From Geomonas agri (lineage in GTDB: Bacteria > Desulfobacterota > Desulfuromonadia > Geobacterales > Geobacteraceae), in contig NZ_JAINZO010000001.1 of assembly GCF_020179605.1 (NCBI RefSeq), positions 124,001 to 188,000 of the forward strand: DNA of 64,000 nt. Reading direction: 5' to 3'. Below are positions 22,413 through 57,000 of this stretch, in pieces. Every line of letters begins with the position of its first letter. Position 1 is the first letter of the stretch. The notes beneath the pieces are model-generated. The model worked only from the letters and a program-made list of their open reading frames with translations, was not told the origin of the DNA and searched no databases. Made by a program: the position numbers and the translations under genes.

Positions 22413-22823
22413 CTAGACGGTTCCAGCGAAGTTCTTTCCGGCAACCAGAGCGCTGCGGCCGCCGTAGACAGTCTGGTGAGCCACCAGGGCCTCGGCGTGC
22501 AACTCGATGTAAGCCACTGCCATGTTTTTGCCGAATTTTTTGTAGTATTTGGTCGGCAGCGCAATGATGTGTTTTACGAGTTTCGCCCGAGACCGCAGTT
22601 TTTTCGCTCCCCACATCATAATCTTGGCGCAATCTTCTGCCATCTGGTACACGTCAAGCCTTTCCGCCTGGGTGAGCGGCCGCCTGTGGCGATATTCTCT
22701 TTCTAAGGTGCGCCTGGTCCGCAGGTAGTCGTACAGCGCGTACTTGTCCTCGGCAATATTGCTGTCGCCGTAGATCTCCAGTGCTGCCTTCTTCGCTTTC
22801 TGGAAAGATTCGTCTTGTGCCAT
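22413..22823 (-). CDS. hypothetical element protein, 136 aa
   Basis: ATG 22823 follows GGGAGGGTGAGGAG. The product is helical and basic (QKAKKAALEIYGDSNIAEDK, then RRTLEREYRHRRPLTQAERL). A Met/Lys-rich middle is followed by a hydrophobic C-terminal helix (KNMAVAYIELHAEALVAHQT). It is probably a DNA-associated or regulatory protein of the element. It is transcribed away from the repeat block and lies 130 bases downstream of a direct repeat that may be its operator. Confidence 0.6.
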   Translation of the reverse strand: MAQDESFQKAKKAALEIYGDSNIAEDKYALYDYLRTRRTLEREYRHRRPLTQAERLDVYQMAEDCAKIMMWGAKKLRSRAKLVKHIIALPTKYYKKFGKNMAVAYIELHAEALVAHQTVYGGRSALVAGKNFAGTV

Positions 22824-22956
22824 CTCCTCACCCTCCCTGCCCGATCGGGCCTTAAGTGGTTGTTGCTTTGTGTAATTATTTGTACGGGTCAGCAACACCA
22901 AACGTTCACTTTGTGCCTTTTTTCCCTAAAAAAAAGTTGGCCACCCACGCATTTAC

Positions 22957-23109: not shown

Positions 23110-24803
23110 TTGAATAATTACGAGTGATTGCGACAATGGGCCACGCAGGGGCGGGAAACGGCAGAAAAATGGGCATCAGGATCGCCCAGGGCGCGGGGAT
23201 CGCCGGGATCGAGGAGGGGATCTGGATCGGGCAGGCAGGGAGGATTCGGAGGAAGGAGGCGGGCCGGGCGCACGGAAAGAGGAAAACGGGGGATTTTGAA
23301 AAACGCGGGACGCCGGTAGGGTGACGTACGGGGTCCCGCCAGGGAACCCGGGAGGCACCCCGGGTCGGAGGTTTTGCGGAGGTTTTTGGGGAAAGCGAGC
23401 GGGAGGGCGAGCCTCCGAGCTGGAGGGCGGCCGCAGCCGGCCGGAGGCGAGGGTAAGGAGGTGGTGTCTTCGGGAAAGAGTGGGACGGAGCGCCGGGAGC
23501 GCGACGGGGAGGAGGTGGCGCAGTTGGGCGGGAAGGCGAGGCCTTCGGCAAGGAGGCGCGGGTGGCGCGCCGGGGTGGACCGTCGGGAGGAGGTGCTAGC
23601 GGTGAGGCGCTGGCGGGCGGAGCTGGGGAAGTTGGGGCCGTTGGGGAGCGGTTGTGGGAGGTTCGGCGATCGGGCGCCTGGTGGCCAGGTGGCGGTGACC
23701 AGGTGGAAGGGAGTGGGCAGGTGGTGAGGCGCGTGGATCGCGCCGCTGGGAAACGGTGGGGATGCTGCGAGAGCGGAGGCCGCAGCCGGAGCTGGGATCG
23801 CGGGAGCAGGTGGTGAGCTCGGCGACGGCGGCCGGAGCCGCCGGCTTGGGGCCGGTGCCGCTGCCCGTTCGGGACGCCGGTGCCGTTGCGGGTAAATGGT
23901 GGCATTCGGCGGGAAGTGCGTGCAGAGGCTGAGTGCCGTGGGGGCGCGAGGGGCCCAGGGCGGCGGGTGGCGGTGCCTTGCGAGAAAGCCGGAGGTAGAG
24001 CCAGGGCCGGTTCCTTGCGAAAGCAGGCGGCGCGGCGGCGGGTATCTATTTCTTCCACAACTTCTACTCTCCTGCCGTCTTGCTGGGGCTGGTGGCTGGC
24101 GAGAACGGCGGGGGTAAGGCCAGCGGTGGTGCCTTGCGAAAGCAGGGCCGGTGGAGCAAACGCCAGATTTGGCGTTAGGCGGTGATGCGGTGCCTGCGTG
24201 CAGATCCGCGGCGTGCTCCGTGTCGATGCTTGTGCGTTCCAAAGGACTGGAGGACGTGCGCGGGTCGGTGCCTGACGAAAGGGCCGGAGGTCAAGCCAGT
24301 GTCGGTTCCTTGCGAAAGCAGGGGGTGGTGCCGGGGGTATCTCTCGTTTCCACATCTTCCGTCTGTTCGCCTCTATCTGCGTGCCTTCGGCCTGCGTTGG
24401 TGATCATGCTCCGTGTCGGATCTGTGCCTTGCGAAAAGAGTTGTGGACGTCGCGTCTGCTCGTGCCGTTGATGTTCTGCCTGTGCCGTTGTCCCGCTCCA
24501 CTTTGGCGTCTAGCAAGCCGCCGTCGTTTCGCTCTACCCTGCCTTCGACTATCTCCCCCTGGTCGTTCGTTCCCCTTCGTCTCTCCATTCGTCCTCTCCT
24601 GTCGTGCTGTAGGTGGTGCGGTGGCGGGTTGATGGTGGTGATCTGCTCGGTGTGAGAGTTGTGCGTTCCAGTAGGCTTGTGGACCTGCGCGTCCGGTGCC
24701 GTTGGGGTGGGGTGGTGGTGCCTGCGATAGGCAGCGTAGAGCCGGTGAAATGCTCGGTGGGGAGAGTTGTGCCTACGAAAAGGGTGGGGGACCTGCGCGG
24801 GTG
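23110..24803. repeat. GC-rich degenerate repeat block, probably non-coding
   Basis: About 1.7 kb of strongly strand-biased (G-rich on the plus strand) sequence. Two families of imperfect direct repeats are visible in the 3' half. Family 1: copies at 23972-24064 and 24267-24360, sharing CGGTTCCTTGCGAAAGCAGG and a later GGGTATCT...TTCCACA. Family 2: units near 24211, 24405, 24641 and 24750 with TGCTCGGTG...GTTGTGC...GTGGACCTGCGCG. Long open frames on the minus strand are Pro/Arg/Ala-rich, overlap in two phases and repeat only because the DNA repeats. No Shine-Dalgarno supports them. Confidence 0.6.
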
Positions 24804-24808
24804 CAAAC

Positions 24809-24960
24809 AGGCATATTTGGACAGTTGTTTATTAAAGCCGTGGATACCTTTTAGAAAGAGGCATGCAAAAGTGGCGAATGGTATCATTGGTGTACTGATT
24901 TATATCTTGTCCAGAAAGGCATGTTTGTACGGCTATTTATTAAAGGTGTGGATACCTTTC
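24809..24960. repeat. 45-base direct repeat in an AT-rich segment
   Basis: Copies at 24809-24853 and 24917-24960 share AGGCAT-TTTG-AC, TTTATTAAAG and GTGGATACCTTT. They are 108 bases apart, at the AT-rich end of the repeat block. The pairing of AT-rich DNA and direct repeats fits an origin or a site bound by a replication protein. Confidence 0.55.
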
Positions 24961-25092
24961 AAAATGTACTAAAAGGATTTTTGCTCAGCAGATCGGTGAG
25001 TAAAATGGATATATTTGCACAAGTAACATAAGGCCCCCGGAAGAGAAGCTGCTTAAAGCAGCACAGGAGGCCTGAAATGGGTTGGGAATCGC

Positions 25093-25180: not shown

Positions 25181-25250
25181 ACATTGGTGTGTACAAGTGT
25201 GAAACTCGTACACATTGGTCGCACATTGGTTCACATGTGATTCACATTGG
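25181..25250 (+). repeat. four iteron-like ACATTGG repeats
   Basis: ACATTGGT occurs at 25181, 25212 and 25223, and ACATTGGG at 25244. All are in the same orientation, with complementary TACACA/CACATGTGA sequence between them. The last copies overlap the 3' end of the leftward gene at 25231. Short same-strand repeats of this kind are typical of iteron origins or transfer origins; no gene lies between 25.0 and 25.2 kb. Confidence 0.5.
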
Positions 25251-25695
25251 GCTCTTTCTGCATCCTTTTTTCGACCATGATCCGCAGCAGCTCGAGGCGA
25301 TACTTGATGTATGCGGTCGGCTGGACCCGAAAACGCTTCTGCAGGTGACCCAGAACTTTACCGATGGTGACCTCTTCACCCTCCCCGGTTTCGAGATATG
25401 CGGCTATAAACATGCTAATTGCCCTGCGCTCCCACCTTTTGTACTTGGCAGCGTCGTCGCAATGCTCAACAAGTTGCCCACGCTCCCACTTTCCCAAGCG
25501 CTTCAGCTGGATTCTTAGCAGAATCGGGTCGGTCATGAGGGACTTCATCGCCCTCAGCACTTTGATGTGCTCGTCGGTGATTTCGGCAACGTTGCGCGGC
25601 ACGACGTAGAGCCGCTGAAACACAGCCAGCGCGTTCTGGTGCAAACCACAACGCTTTGCTATCACCTGGTGCGGTGTCAGTTCTCTCTTTTCCAT
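25231..25695 (-). CDS. hypothetical element protein, 154 aa
   Basis: ATG 25695 opens a basic, helical protein (MEKRELTPHQVIAKRCGLHQ). Its N-terminal 30 residues look like a helix-turn-helix. The rest is charged (RLGKWERGQLVEHCDDAAKY) without a known domain. It is the last gene of a leftward operon starting at 27233. Its 3' end runs into the iteron-like repeats. It may bind DNA, possibly those repeats, but that is speculation. Confidence 0.65.
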   Translation of the reverse strand: MEKRELTPHQVIAKRCGLHQNALAVFQRLYVVPRNVAEITDEHIKVLRAMKSLMTDPILLRIQLKRLGKWERGQLVEHCDDAAKYKRWERRAISMFIAAYLETGEGEEVTIGKVLGHLQKRFRVQPTAYIKYRLELLRIMVEKRMQKEPNVNHM

Positions 25696-25696
25696 C

Positions 25697-26104
25697 TTAA
25701 TGCCCCTCCCTTTTCTCTTTTTCGATCCCCCGCTGCGCCCTACCCCGGGCCGCCCGGCGGATCCCTCCCAGCTCTGCGACTTCAGCTGCCCCCAGGATAA
25801 GCGAGTCTTTCAACCAGGTTGTCAGCTCGCGGATCGACATGCCGTACTCATTGCCGCCCAGGGCCGCGTTGTAGTAATTTTCGTACTCCCAGGCCGCCGT
25901 TGCTCTCCAGCCGCTTTGCCGCGGTGCCAGCAGCTCGGCCCGATCTTCTTTAGCCACCATGGCGACGCCGGCCTCGATGTACTTCCGGTTGCCCCAGCAG
26001 CGGTTCAGGATCGCCACGATCCGCGGATCCTCGACCTGGAGTTCCTGCAACCGTTCCATGGCACCTTTCGGCAGCCTGTTTTCGTTCGTGATATGTCTAC
26101 CCAT
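25697..26104 (-). CDS. hypothetical element protein, 135 aa
   Basis: ATG 26104 follows AGAAAGAAAA and overlaps the stop of the HD-domain gene by a few bases, so translation is probably coupled. The product (MGRHITNENRLPKGAMERLQ, then YENYYNAALGGNEYGMSIRE) is soluble and mixed alpha/beta and ends with a strongly charged Lys/Glu/Arg tail. No domain is recognised. It lies one base upstream of the next gene's start region, a tight operon. Confidence 0.65.
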   Translation of the reverse strand: MGRHITNENRLPKGAMERLQELQVEDPRIVAILNRCWGNRKYIEAGVAMVAKEDRAELLAPRQSGWRATAAWEYENYYNAALGGNEYGMSIRELTTWLKDSLILGAAEVAELGGIRRAARGRAQRGIEKEKREGH

Positions 26105-27233
26105 TTTTCTTTCTTCCTTTTTTCCAAAGCCCGGTGTTGGGGTAAATTTTGGTGATGTTGCGCAGCAGGGGGCTTCCCTTTTTCCGTTTCTCAAGGGCTA
26201 CGATGTCGCCGCCCAAAGACCTGGTACGAATGGGGATGTAGAACATTCCCACGCTCGTCTTGCTCGTGTTGTACTGCGTGATGACCCTAAACTTCCTGTG
26301 TGTGTATTTCTCGTTTGGCGGCAGCTCGTGCTCGGCCAGCGCGCCAAATTCGCGGAGTTGATGGCCGATGAAGTGCGCGACATTGTTTCTGCGATTCATA
26401 TCTCGCGCGATTGCCTCAACGAGCTCGCCGTGACCAACCTCATGGCCCCATTCGCGGACGATCTTGAATGCGCGGTAAGTGGTGACGTAGCACACGCCGG
26501 ACGGCATACTCACCGCTTCGGGCCCTTTGCCGGTGTAAGCGTCCATGCTGTTGATTTCAGGCAGGAGGCGCACAAGAAATTCGACAGGTTCGAAAAACGG
26601 CAGTTTCTCAGCGTAGGGATCAGGCGCTTGGATCGGCGGCAGATCGCACTCCCGTTTCACGGACTCCGGACCTTCGCCCCGCTCGATCATTCTGCGACCC
26701 TTCAGCTCTTTTGCGGGCATCTGGTTCAGCTCGTTCTGCCGCGCTGCTTTATCCGCGCGGATGAGGAAGCCGAGGACCGTTTTCTCTTGTTCGTGGCCCG
26801 GCTCGTGGTGTAAGTCGATCGCCTTCACCACCATATCCAGTTCCTCCTGATCTTGCAGATAATCGCGGAGCCATTCCTGACAGCGGCGGGCAGACACGAT
26901 GGCGTGAACTCCCTCGTAATATTCGTCCTTTTTGCGGTTGATATACCCCCTCATCTTACAAATGTCGTGCCCCAGGGCGGCGAGGACGAGCAGCTGATAA
27001 GTCGAGAATTCTGGGTGTTTGTCGAGCTTCATGGCCATTCTGGCAACGCCGATGGTGTGGTCGATAAGGTTGACTTTAACGTACGGAGATTCGGACCAGA
27101 AGAATGTCACAACGGTCGAGATGTCCCCACCCTTGTCCAGCTTCCTAAGCAGGACTTCCGCAGCAGCCTTTCTGTCCTCCCTAAACCACTGGATCTCCCG
27201 CCAAAACTTTTCGATTTCCTCGTGCTTGAACAT
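26097..27233 (-). CDS. HD-domain protein (TraI/MobI-like), 378 aa
   Basis: Residues 45-160 carry the HD signature: NLIDHTIGVARMAMKLDKH, LAALGHDICKM and KAIDLHHEPGHEQ, i.e. the H...HD...H...pattern of metal-dependent phosphohydrolases. The C-terminal half (FEPVEFLVRLLPEINSMDAY, then AHFIGHQLREFGALAEHELP) resembles the region seen in integrative-element HD proteins related to TraI. GTGAGAGGTGAG precedes ATG 27233. It begins the leftward operon with two smaller genes. A role in element DNA processing or nucleotide signalling is inferred from family; no relaxase motif is seen. Confidence 0.8.
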   Translation of the reverse strand: MFKHEEIEKFWREIQWFREDRKAAAEVLLRKLDKGGDISTVVTFFWSESPYVKVNLIDHTIGVARMAMKLDKHPEFSTYQLLVLAALGHDICKMRGYINRKKDEYYEGVHAIVSARRCQEWLRDYLQDQEELDMVVKAIDLHHEPGHEQEKTVLGFLIRADKAARQNELNQMPAKELKGRRMIERGEGPESVKRECDLPPIQAPDPYAEKLPFFEPVEFLVRLLPEINSMDAYTGKGPEAVSMPSGVCYVTTYRAFKIVREWGHEVGHGELVEAIARDMNRRNNVAHFIGHQLREFGALAEHELPPNEKYTHRKFRVITQYNTSKTSVGMFYIPIRTRSLGGDIVALEKRKKGSPLLRNITKIYPNTGLWKKGRKKNG

Positions 27234-27400
27234 TTCTCACCTCTCACTATCAATTGTGCGAGCCAGCAACGCTTTTTGAGCGGATATGACATCAAAAAAA
27301 CACTCCCCACGAAGAAAAGATCTGATCAACCCTTCTCTTCTTGCCTTCCTGTTCGGAACAACGCTATATTGCTGAGTATTTTTCAGACAGGAGGGGATTC

Positions 27401-27673
27401 ATGACGAAGGCGGATATAGCGGAAAGAATGCAGAGGGAGCACGGGATCACCAAGCTCCAAGCCGTGGAGTTGGTGGAGAGCGTGCTGGATTTGGTGAAGG
27501 ACGCCTTGGTGCAGGGCGAGGAAGTGAAAATCGCCGGATTTGGAAAGTTCACCGTGAAGGCGAAGGCGGACAGGAAGGGGAGAAATCCGCAGACGGGGGA
27601 GGACATCACTATTGAGGCGAGGCGGATCGTTACCTGGCGGCCGTCTACGATATTGAAGGGGCGGCTTAACTGA
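27401..27673 (+). CDS. IHF/HU-family DNA-bending protein
   Basis: ATG 27401 follows GGAGGGGATTC. The 90-residue product is a full-length bacterial histone-like protein: MTKADIAERMQREHGITKLQ at the N-terminus, VKIAGFGKFTVKAKADRKGR, then GRNPQTGEDI at the tip of the DNA-binding arm. The pattern is closest to IHF alpha. It is divergent from the HD-domain operon and presumably binds the element's repeats or origin. Because a copy lies on an accessory region, it is likely an element-encoded paralogue. Confidence 0.9.
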   Translation: MTKADIAERMQREHGITKLQAVELVESVLDLVKDALVQGEEVKIAGFGKFTVKAKADRKGRNPQTGEDITIEARRIVTWRPSTILKGRLN

Positions 27674-30619: not shown

Positions 30620-31987
30620 ATGATTCCTGTATTAAACACTGCCAAAACCCTCACAGAACCGCACCAGCTTGAACTTTTTGGTTACCACTCACTCCATCGG
30701 GGTGGCTTTTTCTCCCTCGTCACCAAAACGAACGTAACACGACAAAAATCCTATCCGATGAATGCCCTTCCTGTCGTTATAAGGTCAGTTAACCCTAAAA
30801 TCGATACCTACCTCTCCCAGGCTGAATTTTTCCGGCCGAATCGGCGAATCGTTAACCTGGCCCACCTTGGTGTTTCGTTCGTCGACCTGGATTCCTACAA
30901 GACGATCACGTACAAGGAAATTTCGTCTGATCAAATGGTCGGAGAATTGCTTCTGCATTGTATTGACTGCGACATACCTATGCCGTCTGTGATTCTATTC
31001 AGTGGGCAAGGTTATTACGCCAAGTGGTTTTACACTAGAGCCATTCCGCGCCAGGCGCTGCCTCGCTGGAACGCCCTACAAAATGAGCTCTGCCAACGAT
31101 TCGTGAAGTTTGGTGCTGATCGGAAAGCGCGAGATGCTTCCAGGATCCTCCGTCTCGAGGGTACCTGTAACACAAAAACGGGTGGCTATTGCCGGGTGAT
31201 CTGGCCTGACGCTGGCAAAGAGCCAATACACTACGATTTCGATGCGCTTTGTGACGCTGTGCTGCCGTTCTCCCGTGACGAACTCACCGACCTGCGTGAC
31301 GAACGTGCTGCAAAAAAAGTCATCAGGGATGCGGAAGTCGCCGCTAGGAGGGCCAGCCTTACCTTGGTCAAGGGGGGTGGCAAGGCAGGAAACCTGCGGC
31401 GGTTTAACCCACTCCAGCTTTCATGGGACCGTTTGGAGGACCTTCGTGCTCTCGCTAAGCTGCGCGGCGGCGTCCAGGTCGGAATGCGTGACGAGTTCCT
31501 TTATCTTGCGACATGTACTCTCGCCCACATTGTCGATCCTGGGACGCTAAAGTTAGAACTGCACCAACTCGCGCATGAGTTTGCGCCGAGTCTCACAATC
31601 TCCGAGGTCGTGGGGTATACCTCAACGGCTGTCAAACGCGCAGAAGACGCTGCCACGGGTTCCAAAATCAATTTTAACGGCAAGCTTGTAGATTCCAGAT
31701 ATAAGTTCCGAAACTCCACGCTGGTTGACCGCCTGGAAATCACGCCAGACGAGGAGCGCCACCTCAAAACCATCATTTCCGAAGCAGAAGCTCGTCGCCG
31801 TGACGCTGCCCGTAAATACGACCTTCGTCATGCAGCCGGCGCGACCACCCGATCCGAATACCTCGCCCAAGCCGAGCGCAACCGAGAAAGGGCCATCATC
31901 CTCCGCAGTCAGGGGCTCAAGATCAAAGTTATTGCGCAGGACCTTAAGGTTAGCGTGAGTGCGGTGGAAAAGTACCTGAAAGCGTAA
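30620..31987 (+). CDS. primase-like replication protein, 455 aa
   Basis: ATG 30620 follows GAGGGAG. The N-terminal 230 residues resemble RepB-like/archaeo-eukaryotic-type primases of mobile elements: VSFVDLDSYKTITYKE, then GYYAKWFYTRAIPRQ, RKARDASRILRLEGTCNTKT and GYCRVIW. The C-terminus has a helix-turn-helix (AIILRSQGLKIKVIAQDLKV, then VSAVEKYLKA). This layout fits a plasmid-type replication initiator with a C-terminal DNA-binding domain. The presence of repeats and an IHF-like gene in the same region supports a replicating or formerly replicating element. The origin it would act on is not settled. Confidence 0.75.
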   Translation: MIPVLNTAKTLTEPHQLELFGYHSLHRGGFFSLVTKTNVTRQKSYPMNALPVVIRSVNPKIDTYLSQAEFFRPNRRIVNLAHLGVSFVDLDSYKTITYKEISSDQMVGELLLHCIDCDIPMPSVILFSGQGYYAKWFYTRAIPRQALPRWNALQNELCQRFVKFGADRKARDASRILRLEGTCNTKTGGYCRVIWPDAGKEPIHYDFDALCDAVLPFSRDELTDLRDERAAKKVIRDAEVAARRASLTLVKGGGKAGNLRRFNPLQLSWDRLEDLRALAKLRGGVQVGMRDEFLYLATCTLAHIVDPGTLKLELHQLAHEFAPSLTISEVVGYTSTAVKRAEDAATGSKINFNGKLVDSRYKFRNSTLVDRLEITPDEERHLKTIISEAEARRRDAARKYDLRHAAGATTRSEYLAQAERNRERAIILRSQGLKIKVIAQDLKVSVSAVEKYLKA

Positions 31988-41447: not shown

Positions 41448-41487
41448 GCCGGGGCCGAATATCGTGTGATATTTCGGCAACCCGGCT
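41448..41487 (-). terminator. intrinsic terminator overlapping the riboswitch
   Basis: Read leftwards: AGCCGGGTTGCCGAAATATC, an ACAC loop, GATATTCGGCCCCGGCT and TTTTTTG. The left arm shares its first bases (GCCGGGTTGCC) with the closing strand of the riboswitch. This arrangement suggests transcription control. Confidence 0.8.
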
Positions 41488-41545
41488 GTCTCGTGGAGAC
41501 CCTTTAGGCTTTCCGTCCCATCCTCGCGAATGGTTTAGTATTATC
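41480..41545 (-). promoter_or_regulatory. GEMM-I riboswitch (cyclic dinucleotide)
   Basis: Read leftwards: TAAACCATTCGCGAGGATGG, then GACGGAAAGCCTAAAGGGTC, TCCACGAGACAGCCGGG and TTGCCG. The AAACC, GGGACGxAAAGCC, GGGTC...GA and AGCCGGGTTGCCG blocks are the hallmark of GEMM-I aptamers, found widely in Geobacter. Some members of this class bind 3',3'-cGAMP instead of cyclic-di-GMP. Which ligand applies here cannot be read without a structural model. It is followed by a terminator and the response-regulator gene at 41401. Confidence 0.85.
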
Positions 41546-41773
41546 GTATATCGCTAATTAAGTTTTTACCGTGCTTACACTCACAAGCACTCGCTTGTCA
41601 AGCGTAAACAACTGAGGACACTGGCAAAGAAGGAATCAGCACGACATTGGCGCTGGTTTTTGTGGTTAATAGTGGGAGAAGATTTCCCTTTTCCTGACTT
41701 AAGAATGAAGTCGTCGGTCCGATGAGTGAATCTTGATGCAAGAACTGTCAAATAAACTCATCCAGGAGGGACG

Positions 41774-45066: not shown

Positions 45067-45513
45067 ATGAAAAGAACGTTTGCGATTTATGCGGTGACCG
45101 CGATAACCTTGCTTTCATTTGCCAGCCAGGGCATGGCCCGGGGCGGGATGGGTGGTGGCGCTGGCCACGGTGGCGGAATGGGCGCAGGGTCCGGTGCCGG
45201 GACTGGTGCAGGAATGGGTGCCGGGACTGGTGCAGGAATGGGTGCCGGGACTGGTGCAGGAATGGGGGCCGGGAGCGGTGCAGGGATGGGAGCCGGGAGC
45301 GGTGCGGGAATGGGGGCAGGGAACGATGCGGCCGGTACAGGCGCAGGGATGAACGCCGGCATGTCCGGCGCCGCATCGAGCGGGATGGCCAAGGGATCCA
45401 AGGGGACGCACGCGAGTATGGCGTCCCAGGCGAAGACGACCATGCCGCAATCGATGCAGGACCGCGCACTCGCCATGCACCAAACTGCAACACAGACCCC
45501 GACTACTCCCTAG
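45067..45513 (+). CDS. exported Gly/Met-rich tandem-repeat protein
   Basis: ATG 45067 follows AAAGGAGTAGGACCC. The signal peptide (MKRTFAIYAVTAITLLSFAS) is followed by at least nine GAGTGAGM/GAGSGAGM-like octapeptides (about residues 30-90), then a Ser/Met/Thr-rich tail. The DNA repeats have a 24-base period and will expand or contract easily. Such sequences form unstructured surface or periplasmic proteins, some linked to metal binding through Met. No fold is visible. It ends 75 bases before a terminator; 44824-45066 upstream shows nothing else. Confidence 0.6.
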   Translation: MKRTFAIYAVTAITLLSFASQGMARGGMGGGAGHGGGMGAGSGAGTGAGMGAGTGAGMGAGTGAGMGAGSGAGMGAGSGAGMGAGNDAAGTGAGMNAGMSGAASSGMAKGSKGTHASMASQAKTTMPQSMQDRALAMHQTATQTPTTP

Positions 45514-54000: not shown

Positions 54001-57000
54001 GCGGTTACGACGAAGTAGTCGAGGCTCGCCTCCAGCGGAGTGAAGGCGGCAGTGATGGTGTGATCCGCTGTGACGTTGGCGAAGGTGTAGCTTCTTAACG
54101 CCCCCACCGACTTGCCGTCGACGAGGACCGCGGCGACCTTATAGCTGTCGGTCGCGGTGCTGCCGGTGCTGGGGGTGATGGTATAGGTGATGGAGGAACC
54201 ACTGGCTATGCTGGTCGCCCCTACGGGCGTGATGCTCCCGTTGGTACCGGCGCTGGCGCTGATCTGGTACATGATGGGCGTGAAGGTCGCGGAGATGGTG
54301 TGGTTAGACGCGACGTTGACGAAGGTGTAGCTGGTGACGGCGCCGACGGAAGAGCCGTCCACCAGGACGTTGGCTACCTTGTAGTTCGGCGACGGGGTGA
54401 TGGCGTAGCTATGGGTGGAGCCGCTGACGACATCGGTGGAGCCCGCCGGGGTCACGCTGCCATTGGCGTCCGCGGCGGCAGTGATGGTGTAGATGATGGG
54501 GGCGAAGGTCGCCGCGATGGTGTGATCGCCGGTGATGTTACTGAAGGTGTAGCTCGTGGTGGCGCCCACTGACTTCCCATCGACGACGACATCGGCGATC
54601 TTGTAGTTGGGGAGCGGCGTGATGGCGTAGACCGCGCTGGTACCGCTGTTCACCTCCCTCGGTCCCACCGGGTCGATGGTGCCGTTGGGGCCGGCGCTAG
54701 CCGTTACGGTGTAGACGATGGGGGTGAAGGTTGCGGCAATGGTGTGGTTGGCGGCGATGTTTTCGAAACTGTAGCTTGACACCGCGCCTACGGAAAGTCC
54801 GTCGACCTGGACATCGGCAATACGGTAGTGTGCATCGGCGAGGATGGCGTAGACCTTGGCGGTGCCGCTGTTTACGCTGCTAGCTCCGGCCGGATCGATG
54901 GTACCGTTTACCCCAGCTGTTGCCGTGATCGTGTAGACAATGGGGGTAAAGGTGGCGCTGAGCGTGTGGCCGGCACTGATGTTGGTGAAGCTGTAGCTCG
55001 TAACAGGCCCAACCGAGGCCCCGTCGACGAGCACGTCGGCCACCGTGTAGTTGGCGGCGGCGGTGATGGTGTAGCTTTGGTCGGAACCGGCGTTGACCCC
55101 CAAAGCCCCGGCGGGGTCGACCGTTCCATTGGGCCCGGCGCTGGCCGTGATGGTGTACACGATGGGGGCGAAGGTGGCTGCAATGGTGTGGTTAGCGGTT
55201 ACGTTGGCGAAGCTGTACGTCGCCACCGGCCCCAGGGATACACCGTCCGCTACCACATTGGCCACTTGGTAGTTGGCTGCGGCGCTAATGGAATAGCTCT
55301 GGCTGCTACCGCTGTTCACTTGGGTAGTCCCGGCGGGGGTGATGCTCCCGTTGGCTCCAGCAGTGGCCGTGATGGTGTAGATGATGGGGGTGAACGTTGC
55401 GGCAATCGAGTGGTTGGCGGTGATGTTTTCGAAGCTATAGCTTGTTACCGCACCTACCGAAACGTTGTCAACCACGACATCGGCCACCTTGTAGTTGGGG
55501 GCGGCAGTGATGGTATATATCCGGCTCGTGCCGCTGTTGACACTCGTCGTTCCTGCTGGGCTGACACTCCCGTTGGGGCCTTCAGTGGCCGTGATGGTGT
55601 ACACGATGGGAGTGAAGGTGGCGGCGATGGTGTGGTTTGCGTTCACACTGAAGAAGGTGTAGCTTGTCACCGCCCCAGCGGAAACGCCGTCGACGACGAC
55701 GTCAGCCACCTTGTAGTTCAAAGCGGGGGTGATGGTGTAGCTCTGGTCAGTGCCGCTTTTGACCCCGGTTGCCCCCTCGGGGGTGATGCTCCCGTTGGCG
55801 CCGGCGCTTGCCGTCACGGTATAGACAATAGGGGTGAAGGTGGCTGCGATGGTGTGGTTCGCGGTCACGTCGCTGAAGGTGTACGAGGTTACCGCCCCCA
55901 CCGAGGTGCCGTCGACGACGACGTCCTTGACCTGGTAGTTTGCGGCGGCGGTGATGGTGTAGCTCTGGTTTGAACCGCTGGTGACACTGGTTGGCCCTTC
56001 CGGCGTGATGGTTCCGTCGGGTCCAGCCGTTGCGGTAATGGTGAAAACTGATCGGGCGAAGGAGGCGGTGATGCTATGATTCGCCGTCACATCGGTGAAA
56101 GTGTAGTCCGTGACCGCACCGACCGATGCGTTGTCGACGATAAGGTCCTGAATGGCGTACCCGGCAGCCGGGGTCGCGGTGAAGGATTGGCTGTTCCCGG
56201 TCTTGACCGAGACTAGTCCGGAAGGGGAGATGGAACCGGTGGCCGGGTCAGCAACTCCTGCAGTTATGGTGAAGGCGCCATCGAGGGCGAAGGTCGCCGA
56301 GATGGTATGGGATTCCTTGACGTTGGTGAAGGTGAACGTGTCAATGGCCCCGAGATCGTTACTGCCGTCTACCAGCACGTCTTCAATGTGGTAGCCGGTA
56401 TCGGCAGTGATGGTGTAGGTCAAGTTTCCGAATCGGTCCACCAAGGTTATTCCCGCGGGGGAGATGGTCCCGTGGGGGCCAGCCGTTGCGGTAATGGCAA
56501 CCTGGTTTGCACTGCCGGATGCTGTGACACCGGTGCTCTTCAGTTTGACCAGCCGGTTGTCGTTCATGGCCACGCTGCAGACGGTCCCCGACGTGGAGTC
56601 GCACCCTGACCACCCCAGAAACTGGGAGTTTTCCGAAAGGACCGGCGAGAGGTTCACCATAGTGCCGGCGGGGAACCACTGGTTGCAGGTACCTGAACAT
56701 TTCTCACCGGGGGAGAACCCGACGGTGACGTCATCATTTCCCACCATATTCAGCAGGAGCTTGTAGGTTTTCTTCGGCAACTCCGGGTTGAAAATCTCTG
56801 CGCTACTCGCTGCGGAAAGGCCGTTCCAACCGCCAGTGATAAGGACGGTTCCGTTCTGAAGAAGGATGGCCGAGTGAACGTCGCGAACCGAGGTCATGTT
56901 TACCGTGGGGACAAAGGCCGCGCTGGCGGGGTCGAAGACCTCGGCACTGTTTAGGTAGCCTTTCTCGTCGCGTCCCCCGGCAACCAGGACCGTGCCGTTG

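Follow-up and report, generated by a model that had tools for sequence, protein, structure and literature searches.

A G-skewed noncoding repeat block in a probable tRNA-Leu island of Geomonas agri, with copies in two other Geomonas genomes

Several described systems share features with the G-rich repeat block analyzed here, which lies in a 64,000-nucleotide stretch of Geomonas agri DNA (the window, to which positions refer unless a contig is named) and has copies in two other genomes of the genus, G014 and G009. With iteron-type origins (oriV), the block has in common noncoding DNA, helix-phased short direct repeats (four CACAT units at 25211-25247) and an element that carries a plasmid-type Rep. 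It differs from them in that no cognate rep gene is adjacent, the Rep lying at 30620 rather than beside the array, and in the 2 kb of skewed DNA that adjoins the array; the usual iterons are also longer than its 10-11-base units. The parC-type plasmid centromeres of ParMRC systems are built of 11-base direct repeats, which the block resembles in its short direct repeats at 10-11-base spacing and in the inverted sets of the G009 copy. Unlike them, it has no ParM- or ParR-like gene among the neighbors scanned; a scan of window proteins turned up no partition family, and of the three copies only the one in G009 has an FtsZ-like ORF nearby. OLE, GOLLD and ROOL are large bacterial noncoding RNAs; the block is likewise long, noncoding and within mobile DNA, but it has no Rfam match and a weak fold signal. 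Immunoglobulin switch regions and other R-loop-forming G-rich repeats share with the block kilobase-long repetitive DNA, a G-rich non-template strand and degenerate units; they differ in being eukaryotic and in their recombination role, and the R-loops of the block are predicted ones. Finally, the chromosomal basal unwinding system of DnaA boxes and DnaA-trios (PMC8287927) is evoked by a match in the G014 copy to a TAC-bearing sequence just upstream of dnaN in the genus, although no DnaA box was found beside that match and the window and G009 copies lack it. The DNA-level features of the block resemble parts of origins or centromeres, with full membership found for neither.

The block is GC-rich and extremely G-skewed, the + strand being the G-rich strand, and a DNA search finds it in single copy in its own 4.68-Mb genome. 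The features of the block and its 3' side, and one ORF of the relatives, are:

23110-24803, + strand: G-rich, G-skewed noncoding repeat block (composition and skew profile, shuffle test, frame comparison)
23379-23509, + strand: sub-region alignable with both relatives at 75-76%, holding the invariant 22-mer
23486-23507, + strand: invariant 22-mer, in the same strand sense in all three copies
23963-24064, + strand: 102-base repeat, copy 1 (self-comparison, shuffle test)
24082-24146, + strand: third, partial copy of the 102-base family, 65 bases (self-comparison)
24209-24280, + strand: second repeat family, unit 1
24249-24719, + strand: longest stretch common to the window and G014
24258-24359, + strand: 102-base repeat, copy 2 (self-comparison, shuffle test)
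24404-24475, 24638-24709 and 24745-24811, + strand: second repeat family, further units
24801-24856, + strand: 56-base direct repeat with TTAAAGCCGTGGATACC, copy 1 (self-comparison)
24909-24964: 56-base direct repeat, copy 2 (79%)
25211-25247, + strand: array of four CACAT units at 10-11-base spacing, overlapping the last codons of a 154-aa ORF on the other strand
L020:5554-5420 (G014) and L021:9859-9725 (G009), minus strand: 45-aa ORF

In 500-base windows, the G skew of the block reaches +0.43 at 71-74% GC, against a largest absolute value of 0.29 in the 1041 other such windows of the 64,000 nucleotides and their 44-kb neighborhood. The skew is the most extreme within the region examined, which bears out the strong G skew noted in an earlier sequence-only reading of this DNA. 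The two repeat families described there, of 93 and 50 bases, likewise match repeats found here. Against 200 shuffled versions that kept local dinucleotides, the best self-match of the block scores 83.3 bits (shuffle maximum 38.3), and four self-matches reach at least 35 bits (shuffle mean 0.01, maximum 1); the degenerate repeats are real and beyond shuffle expectation. The 102-base pair is 77% alike, with starts 295 bases apart (23963 and 24258), and the second family has units of ~50-70 bases near 24214, 24407, 24638-24654 and 24744-24762. Tandem Repeats Finder, suggested as a check, gave no entry inside the block, but self-comparison recovers the interspersed copies, which are 73-80% alike. 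Further repeats run past 24803 to ~25250, and the feature does not end at 24803.

Genomes of two related species do carry the block, a point on which the sequence-only reading had made its proposal depend. Blastn with the G014 copy found it in 2 of the 18 other Geomonas genomes (G009 and G014) and gave no match in the other 16, a search that scores few candidates per genome and could miss diverged copies. With the block itself as query, 7 of 58 genomes matched: its own, G009, G014 and four with short GC-rich matches. The G009 copy matched 6 of the 141 genomes of the order, again these three and G026, G027 and G032, where 32-40 bases align in a GAGGAA run. We rejected the latter three as carriers from the coordinates of their matches in that run, and G003, G012, G040 and G050, which offer only 36-67 columns of GC-rich sequence. 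The invariant 22-mer occurs, with one mismatch allowed, in 3 of the 277 genomes of the class, its own included. Within the limits applied, plasmid and phage collections and viral contigs yielded no similar block; one hit among the viral contigs was set aside as a coincidence of 16 bases inside a long ORF that belongs to a phage contig. Our literature searches met no paper on the block, though one may exist, and none on genomic islands of Geomonas.

The gene surroundings of the three copies differ, apart from HU in two of them. On a 9.3-kb contig of G014, the copy is flanked by an HU gene and by a weakly CoiA-like ORF; its G009 counterpart has a metallophosphoesterase gene on one side and, on the other, an ORF recognized by eye as an IS3-type transposase. 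Block-internal ORFs aside, HU is the only window ORF with a relative beside another copy (52%, G014). Past the transposase ORF of G009, L021:4948-5889 encodes a protein with an FtsZ C-terminal domain and, by eye, a twin-arginine-like start. At ~21 kb from the G009 copy, L057:11603-12367 encodes a 254-aa DnaA ATPase-domain protein in which the DNA-binding domain of DnaA was not matched.

The similarity of the copies does not follow that of the species. In the dnaA-dnaN region, the G. agri genome (G000) and G014 are 90.6% identical and G014 and G009 83.2%, whereas in BLAST alignments of the block the first pair shares 81% over 482 columns plus fragments and the second nine pieces, ~2.4 kb in all, the longest of 1097 columns at 82.3%. 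The block therefore has a history of its own, as expected of mobile DNA, and is very probably mobile. Conservation between G014 and G009 is unequal, with 135 of 140 positions identical in the best 140-column stretch and 102-133 of 140 in windows taken every 70 columns.

The anatomy of the copies is shared in part. Peak G skew is +0.43, +0.39 and +0.35 in the three, always in the block's own + sense, and in G014 and G009 the skew dips to -0.25 at ~500 bases upstream of the G-rich part. Both of these copies hold 23-base GGTACAAAGCT-type repeats and arrays of 10-base units, which in G009 form an inverted pair with 50-base arms, 70% complementary, and in G014 have arms of 15 bases. The window and G009 have TTAAAGCCGTGG units in common, TTAAAGCCGTGG being the core of the 56-base repeat and occurring twice in the G009 copy. 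A tRNA-like nature of these units was considered and dropped, as ARAGORN and Rfam gave nothing. A scan of 17 loci, 256,265 bases in all, found CACAT arrays of at least three units at 10-11-base spacing in just two places, window 25211 and the G009 copy, each time on the G-rich strand; by eye, the G014 copy has only two CACAT units. The parts are ordered differently among the three copies.

The surrounding region is probably a tRNA-Leu island of ~41.5 kb, from C1:120761 to window 38322. A cluster of four tRNA genes lies ~3 kb upstream of the window and ends with tRNA-Leu (C1:120761-120845), which is adjoined by a tyrosine integrase with an Arm-DNA-binding domain, ~25 kb upstream of the block. 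Fifteen bases of the 3' part of tRNA-Leu recur at window 38308 (22 of 26 matching, by eye), and we infer the right border from this repeat together with a rise in GC. The island holds a resolvase, HU, an HD-domain protein, a plasmid-type replication protein and two UDG-like proteins, one of them just under the Pfam cut-off, and a DNA methylase and helicase pair that resembles type III restriction. The neighbors discussed here are:

22413-22841, - strand: ORF of 142 aa, no family match
25231-25695, - strand: ORF of 154 aa, no family match
27341-27673, + strand: HU-family DNA-binding protein (an HU gene 52% identical adjoins the G014 copy)
30620-31987, + strand: plasmid-type replication protein (phrog_9432; ~41% to plasmid proteins, of which some are annotated as replication proteins)

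The replication protein matches 491 plasmid records, every one below 60% identity; its gene starts at a distance of 5.8 kb from the block, and searches of G009 and G014 did not find it. Together with the integrase, it supports in part the plasmid-like operons that had been seen on either side of the block. Searches gave no relatives of the 154-aa, 142-aa and HD-domain neighbors in viral contigs, of the 154-aa and HD-domain neighbors in plasmids, or of the HD-domain neighbor in phages. The HD-domain protein (26097-27233) has a below-cutoff likeness to the Cas3 HD nuclease. Within the island, the motif GATTTTGTCTTCTAGGGG occurs at window 7876 and 10391, with variants at 2877 and 25093, on one strand throughout and for the most part close to the ends of ORFs. 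At up to one mismatch, it is found three times in its own genome, always in the island, and in none of the 18 other genomes of the genus; the reversed pattern, used as a control, occurs 0-1 times per genome. The window also holds a c-di-GMP-I riboswitch (41473-41549, minus strand), eight 222-base tandem repeats within a 2283-codon ORF (54224-55991) and a 24-base array (45193-45322).

A lead to replication, short of proof, comes from one of the three copies. As a query, the 5' section of the copy in G014 matched 12 of 141 genomes, all of them Geomonas: ten, the block's own genome included, match upstream of dnaN only, G014 matches there and in its own block, and G009 in the block only. In all 11 dnaN-upstream loci, the matched sequence lies 68-75 bases before the same start sequence, and in one of them (L060) we read the flanking dnaA and dnaN ORFs. 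The G014 copy carries a 26/27 match to the chromosomal origin sequence of the genus, running from TCAACAGG through the TAC trinucleotides, a layout that resembles the one described for DnaA-trios (PMC8287927). The 27-base match is absent from the window block and the G009 copy. A DnaA-trio unwinding element would place at least three NAN trinucleotides beside a DnaA box; the G014 27-mer has no box at one mismatch nearby, the one DnaA-box-like site of that copy at one mismatch being ~2.5 kb away. Three one-mismatch boxes in 2.4 kb of the window were not taken as meaningful.

R-loop potential was predicted with our own script, which applies the rules of published R-loop predictors. The block contains 10 of the window's 25 predicted sites and all five of its zones of at least 1000 bases, with none on the window's minus strand, and by prediction it has the G-clusters followed by a long one-strand G-rich zone of an R-loop-forming sequence. 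On the G-rich strand of the relatives, zones extend up to 1000 bases in G014 and 600 in G009; unrelated DNA in L028 gave zones of up to 800 bases. The prediction expresses the skew in other terms and gives no independent evidence.

We considered three other explanations of the block. A protein-coding region, such as a 443-codon open frame on the minus strand, is scarcely credible. Several phases do carry long open frames, and substitutions between G014 and the window are slightly uneven by phase (30/23/38; 469 columns, 80.6% identity), but seven of the eight gaps in this alignment are out of frame. Between G014 and G009 (1038 aligned columns, 86.2% identity), 14 of 15 gaps are not multiples of three and substitutions are even (47/50/46), and 11 of 13 gaps in three shorter stretches are out of frame. 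By eye, a repeat within one ORF is read in more than one frame, and Pfam gave no match for the three block ORFs tested. Because most gaps between relatives break the frame, we judge the block not to be protein-coding and reject coding on either strand; this agrees with the earlier view that it holds no credible gene, for which a coding signal in relatives was the counter-evidence to look for. The sole coding-looking place is a 45-codon ORF upstream of the G-rich part in G014 and G009, 71% identical and gap-free. Its AGGAG-like site and shared direction with the G-rich part would suit a long noncoding RNA with recurring hairpins, or the gene of one, transcribed in the direction of the G-rich strand, yet the ORF has no counterpart in the block's own genome (nothing in the window better than E 1.1) and no convincing relative; of the 33 genomes that matched, all 31 besides G014 and G009 did so at E 0.024 or weaker. 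Such an RNA is a serious rival, less probable than the control region described below, and folding supports it weakly. A hairpin in a ~200-base domain beats shuffles in G014 (z -3.2) and G009 (z -2.9), but it is not kept in our copy, which folds otherwise (z -1.3), and the conserved 145 bases beside it fold no better than shuffles. Consensus folds of the 5' G014/G009 alignment give z -0.9 on the + strand (4/23 below -2), compared with -0.4 (3/49) on the + strand and -0.3 on the minus strand of core genes; the minus strand is nearly equal to the + strand (-0.8; 2/23), and the 3' alignment, at -0.3 on both strands (1/8 below -2), is no better than core genes. In 160-base windows, the block's + strand has a mean z of ~-0.5 with 1 of 21 below -2, and ten repeat units folded singly give -0.7 to +1.3, which leaves a globally stable RNA unsupported. 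GNRA-type hairpins can be seen by eye in the units, but such hairpins were lost under fold and covariation tests: RNAalifold found both-sided changes in 2 of 6 pairs with ten units, 0 of 8 with eight units and 2 of 35 in a third alignment, all drawn from three genomes only. Rfam placed no family in any of the three copies, its sub-threshold lines being chance. The structured RNA that the sequence-only reading had raised, with RNA-fold covariance as its check, is therefore weakly supported, by the mild conserved folding of the ~200-base domain and not by the block-wide folds or the unit alignments.

Functionless, decaying repeat DNA in mobile islands, grown by slippage and local duplication, is likewise a serious rival of lower probability than a control region. 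The copies of the block are indeed degenerate, G009 has a longer GAGGAA run than G014, the 10-base arrays vary in length, and 16 of the 18 other genomes of the genus gave no match. Against such decay stand the unequal conservation between G014 and G009, the invariance of the 22-mer and the strand skew common to all three copies, and the identical CACAT spacing in two of them.

The best explanation, which we hold tentatively and at less than even confidence, is that the block may be a noncoding control region of a Geomonas mobile-element family, one that would act as DNA, in replication or inheritance. Within this control-region explanation, an origin- or centromere-like nature is most likely, and a centromere- or incompatibility-type function is a candidate that offers the most economical reading because the short phased array adjoins the block. 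The probable island with its integrase and plasmid-type Rep, the copy similarity that does not track species similarity and the differing gene surroundings point this way, as do the common strand skew, the phased CACAT arrays, the inverted 10-base arrays of G009, the G014 origin match and the predicted R-loop zones. Set against a control region are the distance of the Rep and the failure to find it in G009 and G014, an array of just four units here, an origin match in the G014 copy alone and ~2.5 kb from its one DnaA-box-like site, the two CACAT units and 15-base arms of that copy, the differing order of parts, the lack of a similar block in plasmid and phage collections and the long R-loop zones of the unrelated L028 DNA. 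A search for sigma-70-like promoters around the block in its own genome also gave none, where 0.4 would be expected by chance.

If the control-region explanation holds, a protein would bind the short arrays, in phase with the helix, at the 3' side, and transcripts that enter the block and run along the G-rich strand would stay paired to the C-rich template as an R-loop. Over the skewed kilobase, this R-loop could expose single-stranded DNA for priming or loading, and in the G014 copy the borrowed piece of chromosomal origin might serve the same opening step. A bolder version, which we regard as improbable, would make the block a mobile-element origin of a new kind: the long G-rich R-loop region and the CACAT arrays, joined in one lineage by the DnaA-trio piece, would let the integrated island be opened and copied through the host initiator.

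Should the block be a maintenance or replication locus, the plasmid and phage collections searched contain nothing comparable, and the piece of chromosomal origin in the G014 copy would offer a natural test of DnaA-trio action outside oriC. If it is instead an RNA, it would be a long one outside all Rfam families, and if it is neither, it would show how strong base skew can last in DNA that has no genes.
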